From the IMG/VR virus record IMGVR_UViG_3300046512_000365, positions 1-39,381 of that record: 39,381 nucleotides of DNA; one strand, 5' to 3'. This document shows positions 5,701-36,023 of the stretch, in pieces. The stretch's first letter is position 1. Every line of letters begins with the position of its first letter. This DNA is from a virus. The translations under genes were made by a program, and so were the position numbers. Below the pieces are notes generated by a model. That model had not been told where the DNA came from. It did no database searches and was given only the letters and a program-made list of their open reading frames with translations.

Positions 5701-8361
5701 CTGGACCTTCGCCAGCATCACTTCGGTTGCGAAGATGTAAGGATCTGCCTCACCGGTCGGCAGCATTCGCACAAGAAAGACGGCGTAGCGGGCATTTGGC
5801 GCTGTGATGTCGGTGCAGCCGCCAACGCGATCGAACTCGGCCGGGTCACCGCCATTGTACGCACCGCCATCCCGACCGCCGATCCAGCTTGGCGCATTTA
5901 CCAGCCCGCCGCCTTCATCTAGGATGATAACGAACACCTGGGCTTTACACCGGTGCCGCGCGACCAGGGCTGCACAGGCGATCGTCTCGCCAGCCTTCAC
6001 CGGCAGCGCAAACAGCTTCATGTCGGCCGCGCTTGCGCCGCCCCAGGGCGACCGGGTGATCAGCCCTTCCGCATAGTTGTTGCCGACATCATTCCACGGC
6101 GCACCATTGGTATTGACCCGTGCCCAGAAGACATCGCGCTTGCCGCTGAAGTCGGACGACAGGTTGACCCCTGACGTAACGGTGAAAGGCTGGCCGTTCT
6201 GCGTCCCGGTGCCGCTTTGCCATCCATAGGTGCCGCGCGTGAAGCGGCTGTTCACAGCGCTATTCTGGCCAAGGGCAACGCGGCGATTATCGATCAAGTT
6301 CTGCGCGGCCGTCGCGCCAAAGCCTTGGCCAAAGATGGACGCGGCCGTTCCAAGGCCAGTAATGACCGACCCATCCGTTAGCCATTGGTTGTTGGCCTCG
6401 TTGACCATGCCGCCGCTGATGCCCAGGCGGACGCGATCGGTGCCAGCGAGCGAACCGAAGCCCGTCAGAAAATTGGAGCCGAAGCCCAGCGACGACAGCG
6501 TCGCCAGCGAGCCTTGCCCGAAAAAGCCGCCTGCGATGCCTAGCGACGTGATGATCCCGCCGTCCGTCAACCACTGGTTCTGCGCTTCGTTGACCAGGCC
6601 GCCTTCATAGCCCAGGCGGATATTGTTGCGTCCGGCCAACCCGCCGAAGCCAGTGAGAAAACCAGAGCCTAAGCCCAGCGACGACAGCGATGCCAGCGCG
6701 CCTTGCCCCGTAAACCCGCTCGCGATCCCCAGCGCCGTCTTGAACGCAGACAAAGTCGCCTGCGCGCCACCAGCGCCTTCCAGCAGATAGGGCGAGCCGA
6801 AGAACAGGTTGCCCAGCCCGGCGAGCGAGCCAAAGCCGGACAGAAGCGGCGAGCCGAACGCCAACCCCGACATGGTCGCCAGCAGGCCTTGGCCCGCGAA
6901 CGCAGCGGCGACGCGACCTTCGGTGATGTTCGCGCCAGCTTCGCCCGGCCGGAGCGCTTGGATCGTGGTACCGTCGAGATAGCGGCCGAACCCTGCCGAC
7001 ATATATTGGCCATTGATCAGGTTGGACGGGTCGATCGCGGCGGGCAGGCTGGTGATGTGACTGCCGAACAGGATGTCATTGCGGGTCGCCAATGCGCCCT
7101 GGCCCGCGAACGCGGCCGACGTGTGACTGCTCGTGACGTTCGCGCCGCCCTCAGCAGGCTTCAACTGCTCCAGTGTGGTGCCGTCAGCGTAGGACACGCC
7201 TGCTGCCAAGATATCGGCTGCGATCTCGCCGTCGTTCATCTGGCGATGATTGCGGTTATAGCCCAGGCGGCGCGTTTTCGTGGGTGCGAGCGTCTTTACT
7301 CGACCAAGGAAACGGCCTTGCAAGACCTCTGCATCGCCGTTCCACGACCATTCGCGGATGTCGATCGCGCCCGTCGTTCCGAAACGCCACATGAGCGACA
7401 GCGGCAGCAACACGCGATCCAGCGCCGCCGCTGTCGTCTCCGTGTCGTCACCGATATGCAGACCCGCGACGGCCGGGCGCAACGCGATGGCGTCAGCCAG
7501 ATTGACGATCGCCGGACCGCCCGCCGCCGCTAACAGACGCGCCGCGATTTGCGCCGCCGTCTCCACATAGCCGCCGACATTCTCGCCCTGCACGTCGGCC
7601 GTCAGCGGGCCACCTTGGGGTTGGGTCCACCATTTGACGCAGTTGATCGACGGGGCGACCATGCCGCCGCCCTGGGGCGGGGTCGAAGCGATCAGCGCAT
7701 CCAAGGTCGCGGCGATGCTACCCTGCCAGCCCAGCACCGCCTGATAGCCATCACGCCCCATATGGCGAACGACCGGGATGGACTGCGATGGCCGGGCCGG
7801 ATCGCCGAACTCATAGATGTTATGAGCGGCCAGCAGCACGCGGCCTTCGAAGTTGGCGCAATAGCCATAGCTGCGCCGCTTGACCCGGCCCTCGCACACC
7901 GCGTCGCCCTCGATGCCGCCCGTGCCCGCGAACCACGACTGGATAGCGGGCTTGTTCAGCGAGACGCCAAAGTCTGCGACCGTAATCTGAAGGCGGCCGT
8001 CCTTGACCGTCGCGTCCGCGATAGTGCCGGTCAGAGTGCGACCGACGCCCGCATATTCCTCGCCCGCGTCGACTTCGATCCGGGCACCTTTCCAATACAG
8101 GGCCGCATAGGCACGCAACAGCGCAGGATCGCCCGGCGCGAACTCGATCAGGCTCACGGTTGGCAGGGCTGCCCCGGTCCAGCCATTTTCATCAAAGCCC
8201 AGGGCGGAGGCGAAACGCGGCTCACGGATGCCACCGGCCCGATAATGCAGGCCGTCCAGATAATAGGGCAGATGGCTACCGCCCGCCGCCATCGCCACCA
8301 GGCCCGTTGCGCCGGTCGCGGGATTGCGCGGCCACGCGCGGATATAGGCGACGCGGCTCAT
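2767..8361 (-). CDS. Giant tail-tip/fibre protein with hub-like N-terminus and about 16 GQ-repeat modules
   Basis: An 1864-residue protein. Residues 1 to about 390 form a non-repeated domain resembling DUF2163-type tail hub/host-specificity proteins of siphophages and gene-transfer agents, with Cys pairs around 156-168. From about 416 onward it is built of short modules with a core like xxGQ[GST]xxAT, often preceded by GGANVTEGRTAA; I count about 16 cores, the last near 1725. Inserted among them are two homologous modules of about 220 residues (roughly 688-910 and 1177-1403), each starting near GQN-AVNSRF and ending near DP-ADQTS-NT. The last 135 residues are a separate beta-rich domain. It is probably the receptor-contacting component at the tail tip. 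It overlaps the tape-measure gene by 4 bp. Confidence 0.85.
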   Translation of the reverse strand: MSRVAYIRAWPRNPATGATGLVAMAAGGSHLPYYLDGLHYRAGGIREPRFASALGFDENGWTGAALPTVSLIEFAPGDPALLRAYAALYWKGARIEVDAGEEYAGVGRTLTGTIADATVKDGRLQITVADFGVSLNKPAIQSWFAGTGGIEGDAVCEGRVKRRSYGYCANFEGRVLLAAHNIYEFGDPARPSQSIPVVRHMGRDGYQAVLGWQGSIAATLDALIASTPPQGGGMVAPSINCVKWWTQPQGGPLTADVQGENVGGYVETAAQIAARLLAAAGGPAIVNLADAIALRPAVAGLHIGDDTETTAAALDRVLLPLSLMWRFGTTGAIDIREWSWNGDAEVLQGRFLGRVKTLAPTKTRRLGYNRNHRQMNDGEIAADILAAGVSYADGTTLEQLKPAEGGANVTSSHTSAAFAGQGALATRNDILFGSHITSLPAAIDPSNLINGQYMSAGFGRYLDGTTIQALRPGEAGANITEGRVAAAFAGQGLLATMSGLAFGSPLLSGFGSLAGLGNLFFGSPYLLEGAGGAQATLSAFKTALGIASGFTGQGALASLSSLGLGSGFLTGFGGLAGRNNIRLGYEGGLVNEAQNQWLTDGGIITSLGIAGGFFGQGSLATLSSLGFGSNFLTGFGSLAGTDRVRLGISGGMVNEANNQWLTDGSVITGLGTAASIFGQGFGATAAQNLIDNRRVALGQNSAVNSRFTRGTYGWQSGTGTQNGQPFTVTSGVNLSSDFSGKRDVFWARVNTNGAPWNDVGNNYAEGLITRSPWGGASAADMKLFALPVKAGETIACAALVARHRCKAQVFVIILDEGGGLVNAPSWIGGRDGGAYNGGDPAEFDRVGGCTDITAPNARYAVFLVRMLPTGEADPYIFATEVMLAKVQPGQIELPAYNDGPADPVADQTSVNTASAITGQGALATLSSLANGSGFLTGFGGLSSLNSLFFGSGNLLESNGGPTATLSGFKTSLGQAASISGQGAFATISNLSLDSQLGGAIANRLAPYGGDANYLRASRLAWSEGSTVQDYKPQEPGANITESRTSSGIMGQTAWATFTGSTGRVSRIGEDGYMESGGIFKANVGFLNGWWPDEVNSNRTQNNTASAIAGQSAWATFTGSTGRVSTLNDLGQINGANVYKPNIGWLGDFWPQEGGANITEGRTASAIAGQGWGATASQARADNQQVRIGQNRAVNSRFALGTKAWASQAVQNNNGSAIGVESGVNMDASWSGARDVWYAKINCGGNAWTGGGSTYADILVQRGQWTQEAGLTTLYYLPVKNGDRLHASALLARHRCITSVFCLIFDRAQTLLVAPNVEGGRSGGGHAGAPANFDRVGFNYDVSHPDAAFACLMVRAQPDGTNTPGDAYVFATETMLAVIAPGQTSWPDYNDGPEDPRADQTSSNTAAAISGQTAWATFAASTSRVSRIDESGYIRSTGIYATEGSGGLLSERWPMEGGANVTEGRTAAAFSGQGGLATRNSVDLSNGTVTNLYAEYLTYYATSQTVASLRPAEAGSNVTEGRTAAGISGQGALATRSSLGWTDALFTGRPQYLTDTVDRPGFPGEQSLRSDYITQQGSGIALVNRWPQEGGANVTEGRTAAAFAGQSAWATYSGLSTVTVEQRTQRLQTDGYIESSTIYKSGSGYLSSFWAQEGGANVTEGRTAAAINGQGAFATKSQISMWETNSFLQYGAIRMDYSITRSDGTTTVTETMAITQLGISAGFSGQGIGATSNSLADLDPAQNSKLNGLVTGGRRAYGYGSAARIVLQPGATAFFEAAARVNAGGNNGTMAARIDVSLAGQNSYAAIGTGDTDTVGPSEAGFGAVQASFTNNHGTTKAFDVRVEVTRMGSGAGGAIDVTETYLLA

Positions 8362-11300
8362 AGCTGTTGCACCCGATAATAGTCGCCCAGCATCGCGCCG
8401 CCGCTCGTGCCGCCGCTGCTATTCGCCCCTTGTCGCGTCAGCGCCTGGAGGGACTCGTCGATGCTGGACAGATAGTCCACCTGCTGCGCCGAGAGATCGT
8501 TGGCCTTGTCGAGCTTGGTGTTGGTCGCAACCTGCTCTCCCTGCGCGGCCCTGATCCGTTCATTTTCGGCCTTGATGACGGCTTCGGCAGCATCAATCGC
8601 AGTCGTGCGATCAGCCGCATATTCGCTGCCTGCCGTGCCCAGATTATCGCGGGACAGTTCGACAAGCGATCGCGTCAACGACGCCAGCTTATCTGCTGCG
8701 CCGTCTTTACCTTCCTCGGCATCGGCGCGGGCGGTGGCGATCTGGCCGAGCAGCGCGGTGCGCTGGTCCATCACGGAGCCTTCCGACAGATTGCCGAACT
8801 TCATTTCATCAAGGAAGGCCTGAAGCGATCCGACGCGGTCGGTCAAAATCTGGTCGACCAGGGCGGCGCGATCTTCCGCATTCTTCTTTTCGATCGCGAC
8901 TACGTCGAAGCCGTACTGGTTCGCGATGCGCAGCCGCTCTTTGGCTTGCACTTCGAACGCTTTGAATGCAGCGGCCATTTCACTGCCCAGACCACCGAGC
9001 AGATTTTCTACGTCTTGCACCTTCAGGGCTTCGGTCAGCGCCTGATTGATGTCGGTCGATGAGCGGAGCGCGCGGGATACCGCGTCGGACAAGCCCGTAA
9101 CCGCGCCCTGGGAAACGGCCAGTTGAATGGCATAGGCGATGGCACCAGCCTGATCGTCATCAAACTCCGTCGCCCCCTTGGCGGTTTTCAGCGAGCCTGT
9201 GCCAGTGCGGACTCGCCAGTCGCCATGGCGCTGGCCGATTGTCACGTTGAACGCGCCGATCGCGCCGCCCAACGTGTTGGCTATCTGCGCCAGGCCATCT
9301 TGCACGCTATCGGCCGCGCCGGATGCCGCCTGCCTGAATTGCGAGCTATTACCTGACAACGATGCATCGCCATCAACGCTGGTGATGTTTGCAGCGCCGG
9401 TCTTGGTCTTCTTGAGCAGGCCGCCCACCACGCTGCCCACGATCCCGCCCGCGATCGAGCCTATTGGCCCCGCGAACGACCCGAGCGTTTTTGACAGCAA
9501 TTCTTCTGCGGCCGCGCCGCCGATCGCTCCGCCAAGCATGCCGCCAGTGCCGCTACCCCTGACACCGAACATGCCGGTAGCTAGCCCGCCCGCCATGCCG
9601 CCCACCGCGCCATAACCCGTTACCTTGCCGAGCGTTTCGCCCAGCGATTTGTTGAATAGCCCCTTGTCACCGAAGATATCGGTGAAGACAGATTGCAAGC
9701 CGCCTTTCAGGTCGTCGAAGACGCCTTCGAACCCCTCGCGAAACCCGCTCTTCAATTCCTTCAGAAGGTCAGGCTTGCTGCCGGTAACGGTGATGGACGT
9801 GTCGTTCGGATCGAAAGCCTTACCGTCGTCGCCGACGATCCATCCAGCGGGAACGGCAGTGGACGCGCCGGTAATTTGCCCGGTCGCGGTTGCCGCCGCC
9901 TTGCCCAGGTCAAGGATGTCCCTCGACGTCTTATCGATATTTTTCGATGCACCACCGACAGCATCGGCCAGCTTATCGCCTGCCTTGCTGATCTTGTCGC
10001 CGCCCGTGATCTGGTCTTCAAGGTCGCGGAACAGGCCACCGAACAGCTTTTCCGTCGCGACTTCCGAAAACAGGCGGTCGAACACGTCCAGGCTGCGCTT
10101 GGCAAAATCGCCCAGCGCCTTCGGCCCGTCCTGGCGCAAATCCTGAAGCGTCAGGCGGACATTTTCCCGCATGTCTCCGATAGCGGAAAGGAAGACCTGC
10201 TGGACCTGCTGCTGGACGCGCATTTCGCGCGTCTGCTGGCGCATGACCTCCAGATTGTCATAAAGCGCACGGACTTGATCAGCCGTAACCCCGCGCCGCG
10301 CGAGGGCACTGGCAAGCTGGTCCTCGCTTTCCACGCCCATCTTGTCCATGAGCGAATAGGTAAGTTGCAGGGCATCGGCGTCCGCATAGCGACCGGCCAC
10401 CTGCAATTTGCCTAGCTCGATCTGGCGCTGCTGGCTTGTGAGCATGTCCAGAAACGGGCGGACCAGGCTCTCTTGGATGACGGGCTTCAACGCCTCGGCA
10501 TCGCCCTTGATCTTGGCGAATTCAGCCCGCTGTGCCGCCGTCAGATTTTTCGATTTGGCGAGGCGCTGGTTGATATCGTCGACAAGCGCATCGATCGAAC
10601 GGGTCGCCTGCGCCGCGCGATCGATGTCGCGAGGCGCAGTGTCATATTCGCTGGAGAGCCGGGCGACTGCCTCGGCGGCCCGATCGCTGAAATTCGCCAG
10701 ACGTTCGGCCTCGCGCGCCGCCTTCTCTGCGCTGTTGTCCTTCTTTGGCTTGCGGCGATCGGGCTGGCGCAGCCCCGGCGCAAGCTCGCCATCGGTCAGC
10801 GACTTGTCGATCAGCGCGCTGGTGGCTTCCTTCGCGGTCGAAGATGCGAGGTTGACGATATACTGGCGAAATTCGTCGGCCGTGGTGTTTGCGCCGGAAA
10901 AGTCGATCTTCTCGCTCTTGGCGAGGATATCCATTAGGGCATCGCTGCGTTTTGACGCATCCGTCAGCCGCGACGCGATTTGCGCCTGCCGTGCCAGCCC
11001 GCTGATCGCGCTGCCTTCGAAGCTCGCACCAACCTGCCCACCGGCATAACCCGCCCCCGCGATCGGCGTGGCACGAACGGTGCGGATGTCCCGCGCCGCC
11101 ACGGCCAAGCCATTGGTCGCGTCCAGCCGCTCTTTCTGAGCCTCCGCTCGCAGATTGATCGCCATCAGCCGGGCGTTGATCAACAGCAATTCATTCTGCG
11201 ATTTGATCTTGCCAGTGGTCAGGTCAAACATCTGGCCAAGAAGGCCTTGCGCATCCGCCAACCCACTCGCACCGATCTTCGCGACGTCGGCCGCCTCGCC

Positions 11301-11984
11301 CGCTTTCAGCAGGGTCGATACCAACGTCGATCCGATGGCGACCGCGACACCAAGGGCGATGCCCCACGGCCCGCCCAGAAACGAGGCAAGACCGGCAAGC
11401 TTGCCCTTGGTGCCCTCGGCCGACTGCGCGATCAGCGCGATGGCTGACGCCAACTGGCCCGATTGCTGCGCAAAAATGACGCTAAGCCGCGATCCACTTG
11501 CATAGCTTGCGGCGATATCCTGCACTTGGAAGCCGACCTGCTGCCAGCCAATGCGTTGAAGGCCCAAGTTGCGGGTGACGACATCGGACGCTTCGGCCTG
11601 GCGCTTTGCCGCCCGGACTTGCGCTTCCGATCGCGTGGACAGGTCGGTAAGCTGGAAAGCCGCCTTTCGCGACTCGGTCGCCATCGCCCCTACAGACGTG
11701 GCTGCTCGGTCCAGCACCCCGCCCATGTCGCGCGCGCCTGCCGAAACACCCCGGTTGGAAATGGCCAGCGCGTTGTTTGCTTCGGTCGATGTCCTGGCGG
11801 TGCTGGCGGCCGACTGTTGCGCGTCAGCGGCGCTGCCAGTGGCCTGCGACAGATCCCGCGCAGCTTCGGCCGCGCCCTTCTGCGCGGTGCGGAGCAGGTC
11901 CAGTTCTGCCCTGGACAGCTTAAGCTGGCCAACCAGGCCGGAACCATCCGCGTTAAGGCGAACGCCGACGACGATCTGGGTCAT
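8358..11984 (-). CDS. Phage tail tape-measure protein
   Basis: A 1208-residue protein that sets tail length and is ejected with the DNA. It shows the usual tape-measure layout: a coiled, Ala/Gln/Arg-rich N-terminus, hydrophobic segments around residues 165-235, long helical stretches rich in Ala, Asp, Lys and Arg, and a second Gly-rich membrane-like region around 800-870. It lies directly downstream of the DUF1799 chaperone and upstream of the tail-tip gene, the standard siphophage order. At the rule of thumb of about 0.15 nm per residue the tail would be near 180 nm. It is coupled to both neighbours by 4-bp overlaps. Confidence 0.93.
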   Translation of the reverse strand: MTQIVVGVRLNADGSGLVGQLKLSRAELDLLRTAQKGAAEAARDLSQATGSAADAQQSAASTARTSTEANNALAISNRGVSAGARDMGGVLDRAATSVGAMATESRKAAFQLTDLSTRSEAQVRAAKRQAEASDVVTRNLGLQRIGWQQVGFQVQDIAASYASGSRLSVIFAQQSGQLASAIALIAQSAEGTKGKLAGLASFLGGPWGIALGVAVAIGSTLVSTLLKAGEAADVAKIGASGLADAQGLLGQMFDLTTGKIKSQNELLLINARLMAINLRAEAQKERLDATNGLAVAARDIRTVRATPIAGAGYAGGQVGASFEGSAISGLARQAQIASRLTDASKRSDALMDILAKSEKIDFSGANTTADEFRQYIVNLASSTAKEATSALIDKSLTDGELAPGLRQPDRRKPKKDNSAEKAAREAERLANFSDRAAEAVARLSSEYDTAPRDIDRAAQATRSIDALVDDINQRLAKSKNLTAAQRAEFAKIKGDAEALKPVIQESLVRPFLDMLTSQQRQIELGKLQVAGRYADADALQLTYSLMDKMGVESEDQLASALARRGVTADQVRALYDNLEVMRQQTREMRVQQQVQQVFLSAIGDMRENVRLTLQDLRQDGPKALGDFAKRSLDVFDRLFSEVATEKLFGGLFRDLEDQITGGDKISKAGDKLADAVGGASKNIDKTSRDILDLGKAAATATGQITGASTAVPAGWIVGDDGKAFDPNDTSITVTGSKPDLLKELKSGFREGFEGVFDDLKGGLQSVFTDIFGDKGLFNKSLGETLGKVTGYGAVGGMAGGLATGMFGVRGSGTGGMLGGAIGGAAAEELLSKTLGSFAGPIGSIAGGIVGSVVGGLLKKTKTGAANITSVDGDASLSGNSSQFRQAASGAADSVQDGLAQIANTLGGAIGAFNVTIGQRHGDWRVRTGTGSLKTAKGATEFDDDQAGAIAYAIQLAVSQGAVTGLSDAVSRALRSSTDINQALTEALKVQDVENLLGGLGSEMAAAFKAFEVQAKERLRIANQYGFDVVAIEKKNAEDRAALVDQILTDRVGSLQAFLDEMKFGNLSEGSVMDQRTALLGQIATARADAEEGKDGAADKLASLTRSLVELSRDNLGTAGSEYAADRTTAIDAAEAVIKAENERIRAAQGEQVATNTKLDKANDLSAQQVDYLSSIDESLQALTRQGANSSGGTSGGAMLGDYYRVQQL

Positions 11985-12274
11985 CGCGCGGCCCTCGCAA
12001 ATTCAGCAAGAGCGGCGCGTTCCATCAACTGGATGTCCGCAAACATCGCCGGAGAGAAGGGCAAGCCCATATTGTCAGCCGTGGGCCGGATTACATCATA
12101 GCGAATGCCCAGGCGCGCGCCGGTCATCCCATGGCGGTCCCACTGGGTACCAAGCGCGGCGAATAGCGAGAAAGAGAGCGCTTCGTCGGGGGCGAGGACA
12201 ATTTCGCCCGGCCGATCGACCGTGCCTGCGAGCCGGTCCAGCATCCATTGCGGCATAATGGCGGCACGGGTCAT
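11981..12274 (-). CDS. DUF1799-family tail assembly chaperone, downstream part (T-like)
   Basis: A 97-residue protein resembling the DUF1799 family, which occupies the lambda gpT-like position next to the tape-measure gene. It may be made in two ways. It has its own ATG with AAGGA about 11 nt upstream. The frame is also fully open upstream to the slippery heptamer at 12340-12346, so a -1 shift by ribosomes on the preceding gene would yield a G-T style fusion through a linker of about 24 residues. The conserved core (DEALSFSLFAALGTQW) is Trp/Leu/Phe-rich. Its stop overlaps the tape-measure start. Confidence 0.82.
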   Translation of the reverse strand: MTRAAIMPQWMLDRLAGTVDRPGEIVLAPDEALSFSLFAALGTQWDRHGMTGARLGIRYDVIRPTADNMGLPFSPAMFADIQLMERAALAEFARAAR

Positions 12275-12336
12275 GGGGTCTTCGTTCCTTCGGGTCGCGC
12301 CGCCGCGCCCGCTGGCCCAAGCGCGCGCGGCGGCTT

Positions 12337-12747
12337 TCAGTTTCCCGCGCGGACCTCGGCGCGGCCCGCCCGGCAGTCGGCGTAGGCGGACAAAATGGAG
12401 GGGAAGACATTGGGAACGCGCAGCAACGTGGCGAAATTGGCCTCATTGAACGGCCATGCTTCACCGTTCGCGCCAGCCACCAGCCGCCAATCGCTGACGA
12501 TCGGCATCAGGCCGCGCTGCATGAGGACGCTAGGCGTGGGACGATCCACAGGAGCCTTGTCCGCGTCGTCCGCTTCCTGTTTCCCGGCGAGAATAAGGTT
12601 GGTCGTGCGCGCGAAATCGTCGATCGCGTCCTCGTCGAGAATGCGGAACCGCAGTTCGATCTTGTTTTCGATGACCGCGCCATCCTCCGTGACGCCCGCA
12701 AATAACACAGGCCACCAGACAAGGATTTCAGGAACGACTTTGAACAT
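12337..12747 (-). CDS. Tail assembly chaperone, upstream part (G-like)
   Basis: A 136-residue protein encoded between the tail tube and the DUF1799 gene, the position of lambda gpG or TAC proteins that coat the tape measure during tail assembly. The chosen start at 12747 is preceded by AAGGA with 9 nt spacing; the longer reading to 12816 overlaps the tail-tube gene and is less likely. The last codons before TGA are GCG GGA AAC, containing the X-XXY-YYZ heptamer G GGA AAC, so a fraction of ribosomes is expected to shift -1 into the next gene. There is an acidic patch (residues 46-65) and a conserved-looking VPNVFPSIL motif near the C-terminus. Confidence 0.82.
   Translation of the reverse strand: MFKVVPEILVWWPVLFAGVTEDGAVIENKIELRFRILDEDAIDDFARTTNLILAGKQEADDADKAPVDRPTPSVLMQRGLMPIVSDWRLVAGANGEAWPFNEANFATLLRVPNVFPSILSAYADCRAGRAEVRAGN
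12340..12346 (-). promoter_or_regulatory. Slippery heptamer for programmed -1 frameshift
   Basis: On the minus strand the last sense codons of the G-like gene are GCG GGA AAC followed by TGA. GGGAAAC is in the correct phase (G GGA AAC) for tandem slippage to GGG AAA; lambda uses GGGAAAG at its G-GT site. After slippage the codons continue CTG AAA GCC GCC without a stop down to the ATG of the DUF1799 gene at 12274, in frame. I checked each codon from 12340 to 12274. The downstream sequence is very GC-rich (12293-12330), which could form stimulatory structure. Confidence 0.82.
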
Positions 12748-12781: not shown

Positions 12782-13720
12782 CTATTTCGCGGTGATTGTG
12801 AAGTCCGCCGATCCACCCTCGACCGTGTGACGCAGAGCGAGTGTCCACATCAGCGTGTCGTCTTCGTTGCTTTCGGTGATGTCGGTCACCTGCACCTTGG
12901 TAGACGCGGCCTGGAAAATATTGCCCGCCGCTCGGCCATGGATGAGCGACCAGTTGACGAGACTGCCCGTGCGCAGGGTCTGGATGTAGTTTTTGGTCGC
13001 GATGTCTGGCGCTTCGATGACCGCCGTCGAGGTGAAGCTGTGATTGCCACGGCGGACATAACGCTTGCCCACGAGGTTGCGCATGGCCGTGGCAACACCG
13101 GCGTCGGCGCGCCAAGACCGCAGGGCGGGCGCATGGCCGTCCAACAGGAAATCGGTATTGTCGATATTGACCTCAAGTGGCTGCTTCCAGCGCGTCATGT
13201 CGGGCGCGCCGGGTGCAGTCTTGTCGAACGGGGTCGCGGCCGGGATCAAACCCATCCAGTTGAAGCCAATGAATGGATAAGCGCCTGCCGTGAAATCGAG
13301 CGTGAAACTGCCAACCATGCCCACAGATTTCCGGCGTTGGTCACTCATGAAATCATATTGGCTAAGCGAAGTGGCGTTGACGCCCGGCGCGGCGAAGTTC
13401 TGCACCGCATCCTGTCCTGCCGTCAGCACCGGTGCAGCCATGCCGCAACCCTCCAGCAGTTCCATCCAAGCTGGAGCAGTGCCAGCCGTGCCGGACCCTG
13501 CGATCTCAACCTCGTAAGTAGTGGTACGCCGCTCGTTGCTGGGCACCGAGGCGAGCGCGCCGAACACGCGCGTATCGAGATTGCGCTCGATCCGGTCCAT
13601 ATCGACAGGCTTGCCGGAATAATTTCGCGTCAGAATGCCGTTGGCAGCGGCCGTAGGCACGATATCCACGCCGTAGGTGGCTTCTTTTTTCGCAAGGACG
13701 ACTGCGACCCAATCAACCAT
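12782..13720 (-). CDS. Phage tail tube (major tail) protein
   Basis: A 312-residue protein rich in Thr, Gly, Ala and beta-strand patterns, located between the tail terminator and the tail chaperones, as expected for the major tail tube subunit of siphophages. The N-terminus (WVAVVLAKKEATYGVD) is typical of tail tube proteins, and the C-terminal half contains Ig-like beta repeats ending in a Thr-rich strand. The start ATG at 13720 has GGAG about 9 nt upstream. A gap of 34 bp separates it from the chaperone gene. There is no sheath gene next to it, supporting a non-contractile tail. Confidence 0.83.
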   Translation of the reverse strand: MVDWVAVVLAKKEATYGVDIVPTAAANGILTRNYSGKPVDMDRIERNLDTRVFGALASVPSNERRTTTYEVEIAGSGTAGTAPAWMELLEGCGMAAPVLTAGQDAVQNFAAPGVNATSLSQYDFMSDQRRKSVGMVGSFTLDFTAGAYPFIGFNWMGLIPAATPFDKTAPGAPDMTRWKQPLEVNIDNTDFLLDGHAPALRSWRADAGVATAMRNLVGKRYVRRGNHSFTSTAVIEAPDIATKNYIQTLRTGSLVNWSLIHGRAAGNIFQAASTKVQVTDITESNEDDTLMWTLALRHTVEGGSADFTITAK

Positions 13721-21386: not shown

Positions 21387-21487
21387 ACAACATCACTAAC
21401 ATCAAATGTGCGTGTTGTTCACTATGCGTTTACACTATTCGCGCGCAAGGTGGAGTCAAAATGGCACAACCTGGAGCAGCGTCATGA
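21383..21487 (+). CDS. 34-residue Cys-rich ORF between Ner and the transposase
   Basis: ATG overlaps the Ner stop (ATGA), and its TGA overlaps the transposase ATG (ATGA), so it fills the gap between the two genes exactly and would couple their translation. The peptide carries a CxCCxxC cluster (C9, C11, C12, C15) that could bind a metal, followed by a short basic segment and a Gly/Ala/Ser end. Two AACATC operator half-sites lie inside its first codons. It may be a coding leader controlling transposase synthesis or a small regulator. Too short for composition tests. Confidence 0.45.
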   Translation: MNNITNIKCACCSLCVYTIRAQGGVKMAQPGAAS

Positions 21488-23298
21488 ACGTCGCTGGGGG
21501 GAACGCCACACATCTCAATGCGCAAGAGATTGCCGATCTGCGCCTCGCGGGTTTGCCGACGACAAAGACTGGCGTTCGGGTCCGTGCGACCGGCGAAGGC
21601 TGGCCTTTTGAACTGCGCAAGGTTCGCGGTGGGAACGCTTGTTTTTACACCATCGCGGGTCTGCCTTTAGCAGCGCGCGAAGATCTGTTCGGACGTCGTG
21701 CCGACGCTGCGCTGTCGGCCATGCGCCCCGTTGGCCGTCCGAAAGGCGACTGGTTCGATCGTAATCCTGATGTTGCTGATGCGGTGCTGGTCATACTCGC
21801 CCAGCACAAACATGCGTCAACTCGCGTTATGGAACTGCTGAGAGCGCAGTTTAGCAGCCTTCCTTCGCTGCGGAGCCTCAAGCGCTACATTCTGCGTATC
21901 GAGCGTGAGCAAAAAGTCCTGCTCACCGCCGAACGTGATCCCGACAAGTTCAAGTCGATGTATCGCCCGGCGCTCGGTCGCATGGACGCCACAGTCTCTT
22001 ACGCCCACGAAATGTGGGAAATCGACACGACCAAGGCCGATTTGATGTGCACTGATGGCCGCAAGGCGATCCTGGGCATCATCGACCGCTGGAGCCGCCG
22101 CGCCCGCTTCCTCGTCGTTGAAAGCGAAAGCGCGCAGTCGGTCCGTCAGATGCTGGTCAGCACCATGCTCATGTGGGGCGTGATGCCTGCCATTCTGAAG
22201 GTCGATAACGGATCGGGCTTCATCAACGCTTCCATCATCGCGTCGTTGGACGCGGTCGGGATCAAGCTGGACGCATGTTTACCCGGCCATCCCGAAGACA
22301 AGCCGCATATCGAGCGCGTATTCGGCACCTTCAATCGCGAACGCGCGTCGATGCTGAAGGGCTTTACCGGCCACAATGTCGCCCAGGCGCAGCAGTTGCG
22401 CGCCCGCGCCAAAAAGAAAACGGGCCGTGCGGTTGTCGAGGCCGGGATCGACAGCGCCGAGTTGCAACGCATTCTCGATGCTTGGGTCGACGGCACCTAC
22501 CATCAGCGCAAGCACAGCATGATCGGCATGCCTCCCATGGAAAAGTGGCAGCGGTCGCCTGAATCAGCCCGCGCCGCACCGTCGGAAAGCCTGCTCAAAA
22601 TCGCCTTCAGCGCAGTCATCGGCTCTGCATCAGTCGGGAAACGCGGTGTCCGTTGGAAGAACGGCCGGTACTGGGCCGACACGCTCATCCCGTACATGGG
22701 TCAGCAGGTAATGCTGCGCTGGGACGAGGGCGACTATGGCGCGCTGTATGTCTTCAACGACGCTGGCGACTTCATCGACACCGCGCTCAACGTGGAGCGC
22801 CAAGGTTTTTCGCAGAAGACCGTAGCGCTGGCGGCGCGCCGGGAAATGAACAAGTTTCTCGAAACGCAGCGCGCCGAGCTTCGACAGAAGAAAACGTCTT
22901 TTTCGATCGACAAGGCCATGGACGCAGTCCTGCGCAATGAGGCCGAACAGGCAGGTAAGCTGGCGCATTTCCCCCGGCCGACAGAAGCCCGCTCCACCCC
23001 GACGATGGACAGCATAACTCATGCGCCGGTCCCGGAGGTGCCAGACACGTCGCGTATCGATGCCCTGATGGCGCATCCTGCGCCGAAGAAGGCAGCGCTC
23101 CGCACCCCGGCCGAAAAGATGGCGGAAGCCGACGCCGTCATCGCTGCCGCCGCGCGCGGTGAAACGGTGGACGCAGACGCCCTGGGCCGCGCCCGCCTCT
23201 ACGCCACCACCGCTGAATATCGCGCCGAAAAGACGATGGTCGTCGCCTTCGGCTCACCCGCCATCGCCCCGGCCGAACGTCGCCAGGGTGCCGCCTGA
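21484..23298 (+). CDS. MuA-type DDE transposase
   Basis: The enzyme that integrates and replicates the phage by transposition. I start at the ATG at 21484 (GGAG about 11 nt upstream, overlapped by the small ORF); the longer reading to 21406 adds 26 residues unlike the family. Using that longer numbering, residues 35-95 form the MuA-type winged DNA-binding domain (LNAQEIADLRLAGLPTTKTG, then EGWPF and FYTIAGLP). The catalytic residues are D207 (EIDTT), D267 (KVDNGSG) and E303 (PHIERVFGTFN). A beta-barrel Mu transposase C-domain and a charged C-terminal tail that may contact the MuB ATPase follow. Confidence 0.95.
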   Translation: MNVAGGNATHLNAQEIADLRLAGLPTTKTGVRVRATGEGWPFELRKVRGGNACFYTIAGLPLAAREDLFGRRADAALSAMRPVGRPKGDWFDRNPDVADAVLVILAQHKHASTRVMELLRAQFSSLPSLRSLKRYILRIEREQKVLLTAERDPDKFKSMYRPALGRMDATVSYAHEMWEIDTTKADLMCTDGRKAILGIIDRWSRRARFLVVESESAQSVRQMLVSTMLMWGVMPAILKVDNGSGFINASIIASLDAVGIKLDACLPGHPEDKPHIERVFGTFNRERASMLKGFTGHNVAQAQQLRARAKKKTGRAVVEAGIDSAELQRILDAWVDGTYHQRKHSMIGMPPMEKWQRSPESARAAPSESLLKIAFSAVIGSASVGKRGVRWKNGRYWADTLIPYMGQQVMLRWDEGDYGALYVFNDAGDFIDTALNVERQGFSQKTVALAARREMNKFLETQRAELRQKKTSFSIDKAMDAVLRNEAEQAGKLAHFPRPTEARSTPTMDSITHAPVPEVPDTSRIDALMAHPAPKKAALRTPAEKMAEADAVIAAAARGETVDADALGRARLYATTAEYRAEKTMVVAFGSPAIAPAERRQGAA

Positions 23299-23339
23299 CA
23301 ATCGCCTTTCAACTCCATTGCACGACCGGAGAAGAACTC

Positions 23340-24113
23340 ATGAATAGCCTCGCCTCCCAGCCACGCCTGGACTTAAACGACGGACCACGCGGCAATGCGC
23401 CGCTCACCAACATGGCCCTTGCCCTGCGCACCATTATGGAATGCGAGGATGCCGGGCCGGACAGTTCGACGCGGATCGGGCTGCTCTATGGCTTTTCCGG
23501 CTACGGGAAGACGGTTTCGGCAGGCTTCGTCGCCGCGCGCACCGGCGCGGCCTACATCGAAGCTAAATCGGTGTGGTCTCAGCGCTCGCTACTGGAGGCG
23601 ATCGCCGAAGAGTTGGGCATTACCCTGCTCGAAAAAACGGCGTCCAGGCTCCTGCGCCAGATCGTGGATCAGCTTAATCATGAGCCACGCCACCTCATCA
23701 TCGACGAGGCCGACCACATCGTAAACAAGCGATCGGTCGAAATCATCCGCGACATTCACGACAGCACCCCGATCGCCATCATGCTGATCGGCGAAGAGGC
23801 GCTGCCCAAAAAGCTGAAAGAGTGGGAGCGGTTTGACAATCGCGTTCTGATAGCCACCGCCGCGCAGCCAGCCTCGATCGAGGACGCCTACAAGCTGCGC
23901 GACCATTACTGCAACCGCGTCCGCGTCGCCGATGACCTGGCCGAGCATTTTCAGCAGGGTTGCAAGGGCATCACCCGCCGTATCGTCACCAATCTGCGCA
24001 CCGCCCAGCGCGCAGCCGCCGAAGAAGGCACGGGCGAAATCGATCGCAAATGGTGGGGCAATCGCCCGATTGCAAACGGCGACGTTCCAGTGCGCCGCCG
24101 CGAGGTGGCGTGA
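23340..24113 (+). CDS. MuB-type AAA+ ATPase (transposition target selector)
   Basis: A 257-residue ATPase with Walker A GFSGYGKT (51-58), Walker B LIIDEAD (119-125) and a later sensor region (LIGEEALPKKLKEW). MuB binds DNA as an ATP-dependent filament, picks the target and activates the transposase. It follows the transposase by 41 bp and precedes a coupled small ORF by a TGATG overlap. The C-terminal third is basic and helical, as in MuB-type/TniB-type proteins. Confidence 0.92.
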   Translation: MNSLASQPRLDLNDGPRGNAPLTNMALALRTIMECEDAGPDSSTRIGLLYGFSGYGKTVSAGFVAARTGAAYIEAKSVWSQRSLLEAIAEELGITLLEKTASRLLRQIVDQLNHEPRHLIIDEADHIVNKRSVEIIRDIHDSTPIAIMLIGEEALPKKLKEWERFDNRVLIATAAQPASIEDAYKLRDHYCNRVRVADDLAEHFQQGCKGITRRIVTNLRTAQRAAAEEGTGEIDRKWWGNRPIANGDVPVRRREVA

Positions 24114-31249: not shown

Positions 31250-31491
31250 CGGACCTGTTTTCCGCCCTGGACCGCCTAGCCGACCCGCCGATCGCGGGCT
31301 TGACCGTCGATGCCGTACCGCCCCAGCGCCTGGAAGCGGCCATCGCCTATCTGCGCCATAAGGGCATTCGCGTGTCCACCTTCATGCTGGGCGACAGCCC
31401 GATCCCGCGTTACGCGGTGTCCGCCTATCTCGGTTCGGCATTGGCTTGCCAAGTCGTCGGCATGGCCCGGCTGAAAGGCATGGGCCTGTGA
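31246..31491 (+). CDS. Hypothetical protein between terminase subunits
   Basis: An 81-residue protein, ATGA-coupled to the small terminase and overlapping the GTG of the large terminase by 4 bp. It looks globular (AAIAYLRHKGIRVSTFMLGD, then YAVSAYLGSALACQVVGM). No family was recognised. Lying between two packaging subunits it may act in packaging. Confidence 0.65.
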   Translation: MTDLFSALDRLADPPIAGLTVDAVPPQRLEAAIAYLRHKGIRVSTFMLGDSPIPRYAVSAYLGSALACQVVGMARLKGMGL

Positions 31492-33026
31492 GTCTCGCCG
31501 ACGTCAAAATCCTGCTGCCCTATCAGTCGTCGGCGATAGCGCTCAGCCATGCCAACATGCTGCTGGTGATCGAAAAATCACGACGCACTGGCATCACCTA
31601 CGGTTTTGCGGCCGACGCCGTCCTAACCGCCGCCCCGGCCAAACGGCCTGAAAACGTCTATTACATCGCCTATAATCTCGACATGACGCGGGAATTCATC
31701 GGCTATGTCGGTGACTTCGCGAAAGCGTTCGACGAGGTCGCCAGCGCGTCGTCGGAATTCCTGTTCGATGATGGATCAGAAAAGGGCGTCAAGGCGCTCC
31801 GGGTGGATTTTCCGTCCGGCAAGGCCGTTATCGCCTTGTCGTCCAAACCGCGATCTCTGCGCGGTATGCAGGGCAAGGTACTGATCGACGAAGCGGCTTT
31901 CCATGACGAGTTGGAAGAACTGCTCAAGGCAGCCATGGCGCTTACCATGTGGGGCAGTCATGTGGTCGTCATCTCAACCCACGACGGCACCGACAACGCG
32001 TTCAACACGCTGATCGAAGAAATCCGCGAAGGCAAGAAGGAGGGCGCTGTCATGCGCCTTACCCTCGCCGACGCCTTAGCGGACGGCCTTTACAAGCGTA
32101 TCTGCCTTCGCACCGGCGTACAGTGGACCCCGGAAGGCGAGAGGGCGTGGGAAGCCTCGCTTCGCAAGCGCTATGGCGACGCGGCTGAAGAAGAACTAGA
32201 CGTGATCCCGTCGAAGGGGTCGGGCGTCTATCTATCGCGCGCAACGATCAAGGCCGCCATGTCGGCCGACCTGCCCGTCGTGCGCCTTGCATGCCCAGCA
32301 GGCTTCGAGCAGCAGCCGGACGAGTTCCGTCAGGACTTCGTGCGCGAGTTCCTAGAGGACAATATCGGGCCGCTGCTACGCCGGTTCGATCCCCATCGTC
32401 GATCCTTCTTCGGCCAGGACTTTGCGAGGGTCGGCGACGTGTCGCCGATGGCGTTCGGCCAACATGATGAGCATCTGAACCTCATCTGCCGGTTCATCCT
32501 CGAAATGCGGAATGTCCCATTTCGCGAGCAGGAATTCGTCCTCAACTGGATCACCGAGCGCGTCCCGAATTTCTGCGCGGGTAAGATGGATGCGCGCGGC
32601 AATGGCTCAGCGCTGGCGGAATATGCCCAGCAGAAATGGGGAGCGGCCCGCATCGAGGCCGTCATGGCCAGCGACAAAACCTATCTGGCTTTCATGCCCA
32701 AACTGAAGGCAGGGCTAGAGGACCGCACCTTTACCATTCCGCTCGACGAGGGCGTGATGGAAGACCTTCGCATGGTCAAAAAGGTGAAGGGCGTTCCCAA
32801 AATCCCTGACGCCTCGACCAATTCCAAGGCCGATGGGGACAAGGGCAAACGCCATGGCGATAATGCCATCGCCCTCATGCACCTGATCGCGGCGGCCGAC
32901 GAGGATGCCGGGCCGATGGAGGTCCACACGCTGGGCGTCGGCCGCACTAGCGCCCCTGAGACCATCATTACCACAACCGGCTTCGGCACCGTCGGCCGCC
33001 GGTCCAACGGATTGTCCATGCAATGA
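31488..33026 (+). CDS. Large terminase subunit (Mu gp28-like)
   Basis: A 512-residue packaging motor and nuclease. I start at the GTG at 31488 overlapping the upstream stop; the longer reading back to 31446 lies in that gene. Residues 29-39 (EKSRRTGITYG) are the Walker A-like motif, and 131-140 (VLIDEAAFHD) the Walker B with catalytic Glu. An ISTHDG coupling motif follows. The nuclease domain has FFGQDFARVGD near residue 306 with the first metal-binding Asp, and later acidic residues near KRHGDNAIALMHL. Overlaps the portal gene by 4 bp. Confidence 0.93.
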   Translation: MSLADVKILLPYQSSAIALSHANMLLVIEKSRRTGITYGFAADAVLTAAPAKRPENVYYIAYNLDMTREFIGYVGDFAKAFDEVASASSEFLFDDGSEKGVKALRVDFPSGKAVIALSSKPRSLRGMQGKVLIDEAAFHDELEELLKAAMALTMWGSHVVVISTHDGTDNAFNTLIEEIREGKKEGAVMRLTLADALADGLYKRICLRTGVQWTPEGERAWEASLRKRYGDAAEEELDVIPSKGSGVYLSRATIKAAMSADLPVVRLACPAGFEQQPDEFRQDFVREFLEDNIGPLLRRFDPHRRSFFGQDFARVGDVSPMAFGQHDEHLNLICRFILEMRNVPFREQEFVLNWITERVPNFCAGKMDARGNGSALAEYAQQKWGAARIEAVMASDKTYLAFMPKLKAGLEDRTFTIPLDEGVMEDLRMVKKVKGVPKIPDASTNSKADGDKGKRHGDNAIALMHLIAAADEDAGPMEVHTLGVGRTSAPETIITTTGFGTVGRRSNGLSMQ

Positions 33027-34576
33027 GCAAGCGTCCTTCGCCTTACCGCTCCGTCGGCCGCGCGGCGGTGGCAAAGCCCGCGCCTGAATTGCAGAACGAG
33101 ATCGCCAGCACCCGCGACGGTCGCGACATCACCCAGCCTTGGGTGCGCGGCCTGCGTGAGGCCAAAGACCCGAAGCTGGCGACCGCCGTCGATTGGGGCG
33201 CCTACGACATCGTGTTCAACGATGATCAGGTCTTCTCGACCATGCAACAGCGCATCGGCGCTGTCGTGGCGCGCGACTGGAACGTCATTGCCGGTGAAAC
33301 CGAAGACCCCCGTGCCGAAAAGGCGGCGGAAGCCTTCGACACGATGATGAAGCGCCTGCCGTGGGACCGCGTCACCCGCAAAATGCTGATGGCCAGTTTC
33401 TATGGCTACAGCGTTGCCGAACTGATGTGGGGCTATCGCGATGGCCGGTTCGACGTCGTGGGGATCAAGGTGCGTCATGCGCGCCGGTTCCGCTATGACG
33501 ACGAAGATCGCCTACGCATGCTCACTCCCACGAATATGCAGGGCGAAATCATGCCCGACCGCAAATTCTGGGTGCATGCGGTCGGGGCGGCCGACGATGA
33601 TCAGCCATATGGGCATGGGCTGGCGCACTGGCTCTACTGGCCGACGCTGTTCAAGCGCAATGGCATCCGTTTCTGGAACATCTTCCTCGACAAGTTCGGG
33701 ACGCCGACCGCCAAAGGCACCTATCCGCGCGGATCGAGCAAAGAAGACATCAACAAGCTGCTGATGGCGCTTCAGGCTATCGCCACCGACAGCGGGTTCG
33801 TTGTGCCAGATGGCATGGCGGTGGAGCTGCTCGGCGCGGCACGATCGGGTACGGGCGACTATCACCAGCTTTGCCTCTACATGGACGCGGCCATCGCAAA
33901 GATCGTCCTCTCGCAGACGATGACCACGGATAACGGCTCGTCTCGCTCGCAGGGTGAAGTCCATGCCGACGTGAAGCTGGAAGTGGTCAAGACCGACGCC
34001 GACGATCTGACCGACAGCTTCGCTCAGGTCGCGCGCTGGTGGACCGACTTCAACTTCGGCCCCGATGTGGCCGCGCCGATCGTGCGCCGCATCGTCGAGG
34101 AAGAAGAGGACGCCAAGGCCAACGCCGAAACCGACAAAATCCATGGCGAGAATGGCTGGGTTCGAACCGAAGAGAGTTTCCAGGACACCTATGGCGAAGG
34201 CTTCGTTCGCCGCGACGACAAGGATGCACCGACGGGGTCGCAGCAACCTACCAAAGCGGAGCCACCCGGCGCTGCCAACGATGATGTCACGCCCCCCGCA
34301 ACAGCAGCTAGTTTCGCAGAAGACGATGACCATGACAACGCTGACAGCATCGTCGATCGCATGATTGCCGAGGATGGCTACCGAGTCGCAAGCGCCATGA
34401 CCGGGACGCTCGTCGATCGCCTGCTGTCCGCCGATAGCGAAACCGAAGCCCGTGCGATCCTCGCCGATGGCCTGGGCATCATGGACGAGCAGCCGCTTGT
34501 CCAGGCCTTGGAACGAGCCGGTTTCGCAGCCCAACTTGACGCTGCCACCCAGCGTCCCACTCAGGGAGAAAATTGA
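33023..34576 (+). CDS. Portal protein (DUF935, Mu gp29-like)
   Basis: A 517-residue portal of the DUF935 family. Family features include [44 protein letters not shown], the [11 protein letters not shown] segment, and [23 protein letters not shown], followed by GTGDYH and the [22 protein letters not shown] region. The C-terminal 150 residues are acidic and partly low complexity ([20 protein letters not shown]), then end in a helical domain. It follows the large terminase and precedes the GapR-like gene with a TGATG overlap. Confidence 0.93.
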
Positions 34577-34818
34577 TGTCGTCAGGGAATGTCGCCGGAG
34601 AGCAGTTGCGTCTGCTGATCGAACGTATCGAGCGCCTGGAAGATGAAAAGAAGGGCATCGGCGACGATATCAAGGACGTCTATCTTGAAGGAAAGGCGAC
34701 TGGCTACGACACGAAAATGATGCGTGAGGTTATCCGGTTACGGAAGATGGCTCCGCACGACCGTCAAGAAATGGAAGCCATCCTTCAATCCTATCTGGCT
34801 GCGCTCGGAATGGAATGA
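34576..34818 (+). CDS. GapR-like (DUF2312) DNA-binding protein
   Basis: An 80-residue protein closely matching the DUF2312/GapR family, chromosome-structuring proteins of alphaproteobacteria that clamp overtwisted DNA. The layout is visible throughout: [20 protein letters not shown], then [29 protein letters not shown], then [12 protein letters not shown]. It is located inside the late head operon, between portal and Mu F-like genes, with overlapping starts and stops. I start at the ATG at 34576 overlapping the portal stop. Possible roles are DNA topology during packaging or replicative transposition, or interference with host GapR. Confidence 0.88.
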
Positions 34819-36023
34819 TGAGCGACCAGCTTGGCTACTCTATCTTCCTGAAGCCTGACGACGTCGTCCGCGCCTTCAAGGCGCGTGGCGCGTTGCAACA
34901 GACTGTCCGTTGGTCGGAAATGATGCATGGCGACCATGCAGTCGGCTTCACCGTAGCCAAGATCGCCAAGCTGGACCTCCTTCGCACCATGCGCGCGTCG
35001 ATCGATGACGTTCTGCGCAACGGCGGCACCTATGAAGGCTGGAAAGCAGGCATACTGCCCGTTTTGAAAAAGGCGGGATGGTGGGGCGCGGTCACCAATG
35101 TGGAACTGACGGGCACGGACGAAACCGTCATCGTCAACAATCGCCGCCTGCGGACCATCTACAACACCAACGTCCGAATGAGCATGGCGACAGGTCATTG
35201 GGCGCGTATTCAGCGTCAAAAGGACGTACTTCCCTATCTCCGCTACTTGCCATCGTCGTCGGAGCATAAGCGCCCGCTCCATAAGACCTGGTATGGCATC
35301 TTGTTGCCGGTGGATCATCCTTTCTGGCAGACGCATTTCCCGCCCAACGGCTGGGGCTGCAAATGCCACTTCGAGCAGGTTTCCGAGCGCAAGATGCGCC
35401 GCATGGGCTGGGCCGTCACACCCGACCAGCAGCTTCCGCAAGGTTCGCGTCAGTTTTACCCTGCAAACGGCGACACCATCACCGTGCCAGACGGCATTGA
35501 CCCTGGCTTTAGCTACAACCCTGGCACTGCCCACCTTCGGGCCGTCGCGGCGAAGGCCGCCAACTCGATCCAACAGGCGCTTGATGCGGGACTTGAGGAT
35601 GCAGCGCGATTGACGCTGCGGCAGATTGTCGACGACGTCGCCTTTGAGCAGTTCGTTGCATTGCCGAACCCCGGCTTCCCGGTGATGATCCTCAACCAGC
35701 AGCTTCAGGCTGCGATCGGGGCAAAAGCTCGTCTGGCGATCTTGTCAGATACGACCGTTGCAAAGCAGATCGACAAGCGGCCCAATTTGACGTTGGCGAT
35801 CTATCGTCAGTTACCCACCCTTTCAGATCGCGCGGACATCGTGGCGTTGGACGGTGAGAACGTCCTTATATTCGCGCGGGAGGCGAACGGACAATGGACC
35901 GTCGCCATCATGAAACGGACAGCAAGCGGTCAAGGCCTGTTTGTCACCAGCGTCCGGTCGCAGAACGCCAGCAGTTTACCCCGACTGCTCAAGGGGACGG
36001 AGATCATCGTTGATCGTCGGTGA
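34815..36023 (+). CDS. Mu F-like head morphogenesis protein with RNase-like C-terminus
   Basis: A 402-residue minor head protein of the Mu F/SPP1 gp7 family. Residues 110-200 carry the family's core: [48 protein letters not shown] (a His and Cys pair typical of the domain). The C-terminal 120 residues (from about 285) form a separate alpha/beta domain: [40 protein letters not shown], then [20 protein letters not shown]. This resembles the barnase/EndoU/colicin-like (PBECR) nuclease domains seen fused to Mu F-like proteins. Nuclease function is inferred. Confidence 0.85.

Follow-up and report, generated by a model that had tools for sequence, protein, structure and literature searches.

A G-like tail assembly chaperone gene and the DUF1799 gene that follows it are very probably joined by a programmed -1 ribosomal frameshift of the lambda G/GT type in the virus record IMGVR_UViG_3300046512_000365, as judged from sequence and from comparison with relatives. 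The window, the whole stretch of DNA analysed, comprises positions 1 to 39,381 of that record (39,381 nt). A preliminary description of the window had already proposed lambda G/GT logic in a Mu-like siphophage, and this reading is now supported by the conservation of the slip site, a coding signature in the -1 frame, a downstream hairpin, gene order and profile HMM links to known chaperone families.

Gene context, slip site and overlapping frame

The phage is Mu-like, with Mu transposase domains, a MuB-like ATPase, a Mu portal (PF06074) and Mu F (PF04233), and it encodes a tube protein, not a sheath. Its tail genes follow the order tube, G, DUF1799 and tape measure, which is the same in RcWaterboi and RcapMu (Table 1). 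By itself, the window G protein matches phrog_569 only. Its homologues (n = 19) match phrog_569 in 18 cases, phrog_313 in 8 and PF08748 Phage_TAC_4 in 3 (best 1.1e-4), and the homologue in RcWaterboi carries the annotation tail assembly chaperone. The profile of G found no solved-structure relative. The DUF1799 segment matches PF08809 at 35.4 bits, above the gathering cut-off of 26, and the long ORF at the tape-measure position has no family match of its own.

PHROGs names both chaperone halves (phrog_569 and phrog_680) ‘tail length tape measure protein’, a misleading name inherited by many RefSeq phage records. The protease-capsid-tail operon (18772-2767, minus strand) is divergent from MuA/MuB (21406-24113, plus strand) and lies apart from terminase-portal-MuF (31446-36023, plus strand). 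The same divergent order of MuA/MuB and the protease-capsid-tail genes is found in L003, L005 and L007, and MuA is likewise reversed in L006; the shared order seems to be a trait of the lineage, in contrast to RcapMu, whose arrangement is collinear.

On the minus strand, the G-like ORF ends in GAG GTC CGC GCG GGA AAC TGA and the sequence continues AAG CCG. This confirms the correctly phased G GGA AAC heptamer, touching the stop codon, of the preliminary description. Within the window, GGGAAACTGA occurs once where 0.03 copies are expected, and GGGAAAC occurs 7 times where 4.2 are expected. Thus, what is unusual is not the bare heptamer but its occurrence in phase and flush with a stop. A second GGGAAAC inside G (12585-12579) was considered and rejected, since its phase (GGG AAA C) is incorrect and the -1 frame opens only downstream of it.

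Read one base back, the same letters give GGG AAA CTG AAA GCC and stay open to 11984, in register with the DUF1799 ATG at 12274. The claim that the -1 frame is open through to this ATG, and in frame with it, is borne out, and the frame extends upstream to 12442. Between the shift and the ATG lies a linker of 22 codons, which starts LKAAARAWASGRGG in the closest relatives and LTAVARAW in RcapMu. Comparison of 15 sister pairs over the 42 nt that follow the stop gives 55 substitutions at third, 18 at second and 10 at first positions of the -1 frame. These post-stop substitutions follow -1-frame coding, and the overlapping -1 frame is conserved as protein.

Table 1. Features of the G/DUF1799 region of the window
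Feature	Coordinates	Strand	Basis or remark
Tail tube protein gene, upstream neighbour	12782-13720	minus	phrog_290; PF18906 (below gathering score)
G-like tail assembly chaperone CDS, 136 aa, zero frame, ends ...RAGN*	12337-12747	minus	phrog_569 match; homologue annotations
Full open -1 frame	12442-11984, stop 11983-11981	minus	translation
Slippery heptamer GGGAAAC, phased G_GGA_AAC (X_XXY_YYZ)	12346-12340	minus	flush with stop in 83/87 loci
TGA stop of G, directly 3' of heptamer	12339-12337	minus	flush loci: TGA 78, TAA 5, TAG 0
Slip site and linker, -1-frame coding only; first -1 codon CTG (Leu) at 12340-12338; LKAAARAWASGRGGATRRNEDP	12275-12346	minus	conserved peptide; third-position substitution bias
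Predicted stimulatory hairpin, 10+4 bp, dG -33.6 kcal/mol, 5-nt spacer (TGAAA) after heptamer	12334-12299	minus	folding; z -3.3
AAGGAA, possible ribosome-binding site for free DUF1799 protein	12290-12285	minus	10 nt before ATG at 12274
DUF1799 segment (PF08809, phrog_680), T-like C-terminal part of predicted fusion	11981-12274	minus	profile matches
Long ORF, 1208 aa, tape-measure position, overlaps DUF1799 stop	8358-11984	minus	position; length; homologous ORFs in L003 and L009

Conservation in DUF1799 loci and downstream folding

Searches for homologues with the G protein alone gave no match in IMG/VR, GTDB genomes or INPHARED. Therefore, relatives were sought through the capsid and through a DUF1799 alignment, and the upstream ORF was picked by a bounded search. 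Nearly all loci were gathered blind to the heptamer, those from L018 to L111 by DUF1799 similarity alone. Together with the window and a pair of Rhodobacter phages, the loci from IMG/VR and GTDB genomes make up a set of 87 that are non-redundant and whose upstream ORF could be identified. In 83 of these 87 loci, the stop of the upstream gene directly follows an X_XXA_AAC heptamer (69 GGGAAAC and 14 AAAAAAC), and DUF1799 is in the -1 frame relative to the upstream ORF in all 87, counts that overstate independence because the loci are phylogenetically related. Conservation of the heptamer in homologues had been named beforehand as a check on the frameshift, and its outcome is favourable. In the remaining four loci, the heptamer is also in frame but lies at some distance from the stop (3, 9, 24 or 72 nt upstream). 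The background of in-frame X_XXY_YYZ motifs in the bodies of homologous G ORFs is 11 in 10,333 codon boundaries (0.11%). The terminal GN of the normal G product is invariant in the 19-sequence alignment, and at GGGAAAC sites the glycine before this asparagine is always encoded by GGA, elsewhere the rarest glycine codon of these ORFs (59/674).

A sample of 13 named phages, T1-like and other enterobacterial phages for the most part, was also inspected; 10 of them, among them HK639, phiES15 and several T1-like phages, retain a heptamer next to the stop. Other arrangements were observed in individual phages. The Klebsiella Webervirus phages Call (L120) and KW1.2 (L123) have A_AAA_GTC or A_AAA_GTT followed by TAA at about 1186-1195, with no heptamer; the -1 frame is still open in both, and the A run possibly allows a single-tRNA slip. 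In Salmonella virus STSR3 (L118, MT500539), the A run at about 1172-1185 is one base shorter than that of its relatives, so that the annotated G gene runs straight into the DUF1799 frame; this direct reading is either a natural fusion or a sequencing error. In the distant relative Leptolyngbya phage Lsp-JY19 (L014, 13235-13259), 15 nt separate the end of AAAAAAC from the stop. Pfam does not identify DUF1799 in its downstream frame, and the -1 reading runs on KLKAAA, as in the window.

Stimulatory structure beyond the slip site is common, though not universal, in lambda G/GT-type frameshifts, and here folding downstream of the heptamer is stronger than the encoded peptide needs. The window hairpin, absent from the preliminary description, begins after the short spacer given in Table 1. 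Its exact stem is common to close relatives only; other subgroups have different registers, which is why 36 relatives gave poor column-by-column covariation, and a shuffle test was used instead. As the region is GC-rich and protein-coding, the null consisted of random sequences that preserved both the -1-frame peptide and the codon usage of each locus (synonymous-codon shuffles). Over the first 45 nt downstream in 83 loci, the mean z is -1.3 and 61% of loci fall below -1 (window, -3.3), against z of -0.16 to -0.38 at three control offsets further downstream. Several loci have weak downstream structure in this test. A search of the window against Rfam gave no match.

Proposed mechanism and alternative readings

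According to the frameshift model, the majority of ribosomes would decode GGA AAC and then stop at the adjoining TGA, yielding the 136-aa chaperone G. A minority, held by the hairpin 5 nt downstream, would slip, the tRNAs on GGA and AAC presumably re-pairing together on GGG and AAA. These ribosomes would read CTG (Leu) next, then the 22-aa linker and DUF1799, giving a fusion of about 255 aa. The junction of the fusion would be ...RAGN-LKAAARAW..., with Asn and not the Lys of a simple -1 translation, and the predicted Glu-C junction peptide is VRAGNLKAAARAWASGRGGATRRNE. As putative chaperones, G and the fusion would both act in tail-tube assembly on the tape measure protein. A point against the frameshift is that, in the A_AAA_AAN series in E. 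coli, heptamers ending in AAC are reported to be less shift-prone than those ending in AAG (PMC5009743).

A chance heptamer, or an apparent frameshift created by sequencing error or a decayed gene, might be suspected given that bare GGGAAAC is not rare in the window. Such explanations are ruled out by conservation, the same phased, stop-adjoining site recurring in independent assemblies and isolates. Free DUF1799 protein could also arise by initiation at its own ATG, through re-initiation or coupling after the G stop, the -1 overlap then being incidental. The AAGGAA motif before the window ATG, overlooked in the preliminary description, means that some free DUF1799 protein could be made; an AGGA motif precedes the ATG in L018 and L021 too, and DUF1799 is annotated as a gene of its own in RcWaterboi and others. 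However, the start codon is not conserved (TTG or CTG in L022 and L029, GTG in RcapMu), and 11 of the 83 flush loci have no ATG, GTG or TTG from the stop to the first ten codons of the DUF1799 match. Conservation as a -1-frame peptide extends to the linker ahead of the ATG, and the heptamer is near invariant, all of which make independent initiation in place of a frameshift highly improbable. A combination, in which the window phage and its closest relatives make the frameshift fusion and some extra free DUF1799 protein from the ATG, is less easily set aside but still unlikely. The heptamer and the Shine–Dalgarno-like start are intact together in the window, L018 and L021, but the start is not conserved outside this closest group and free T is not known to belong to the lambda scheme.

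The role of the stop codon itself deserves comment within the frameshift model. The preliminary description expected direct contact with a stop to increase slippage, and such a boost is plausible. It is tempting to go further and propose that in the DUF1799 family the abutting stop is itself part of a recoding signal, X_XXA_AAC_TRA, in which slow termination, mostly at TGA read by RF2, would add slippage, although we hold this to be doubtful. The absence of TAG among the flush sites was counted as a pointer in this direction. A second pointer is the position that follows the shift-frame Leu, where the amino acid differs between loci (K, I, T, R or S) while the first base of the codon, which is the final base of the stop, is A throughout; any TGA or TAA there would, however, ensure this. 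A neutral alternative remains, namely a required Leu together with the need for a nearby stop. If the stop did belong to the signal, the G:GT ratio would depend on release-factor supply, and the site would parallel, in the -1 direction, the +1 shift of prfB, which depends on a stop.

Comparison with known systems and implications

In lambda, the heptamer is G_GGA_AAG and the stop lies some codons downstream; the window differs in its heptamer and in the contact with the stop, and lambda T is not a DUF1799 protein. What the two have in common is a pair of chaperone products made by a -1 slip before the tape measure gene, predicted in the case of the window. The 30:1 ratio of lambda G to GT, their role and the general mechanism have been reviewed (PMC5009743).

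A close parallel is the gp49/gp50 pair of the Rhodobacter phage RcapMu (JN190960; Fogg et al. 2011, as cited in PMC8601537), and a ‘potential -1 frameshift’ is already noted at the corresponding position in the record of that phage. RcapMu is likewise a Mu-like siphophage, with the same gene pair, a DUF1799 partner, GGGAAAC-TGA and a downstream hairpin, but its G is about 20% and its DUF1799 about 30% identical to those of the window, and its late genes are collinear. For gp18/gp19 of Burkholderia phage KL1, a published prediction places GGGAAAC immediately upstream of the chaperone TGA, with a stem-loop (PMC3483164). KL1 thus shares the GGGAAAC-TGA contact with the window, and its -1 translation starts GKL, whereas its second segment is Phage_TAC_18 (PF23812) and not DUF1799. 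The tape measure chaperones of T1-like phages (Drexlerviridae) do have a DUF1799 partner and, in most sampled members, a heptamer flush with the stop; unlike the window, they use A_AAA_AAC (followed by TAA or TGA) instead of GGGAAAC, and the Klebsiella Webervirus members A_AAA_GTY-TAA. A conserved chaperone frameshift has been reported for the T1-like phages Stevie (PMC4319613) and Solomon (PMC8407766). In searches of the openly licensed literature, no paper was found that names a DUF1799 frameshift or a family-wide stop contact.

The mechanism is already established in many tailed phages, and the G/DUF1799 site is a clear but ordinary new example of it. Modestly new is the generalisation that contact between heptamer and stop is near-universal in the DUF1799 family. 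The DUF1799 proteins of proteobacterial siphophages, listed by PHROGs and in many records as hypothetical or, misleadingly, as tape measure protein, are identified as that half of the tail assembly chaperone which would be made by frameshifting. A simple annotation rule follows, namely to check whether the gene ahead of DUF1799 has AAAC immediately 5' of its stop codon. The near-universal stop contact also raises the question of how termination competes with slippage.
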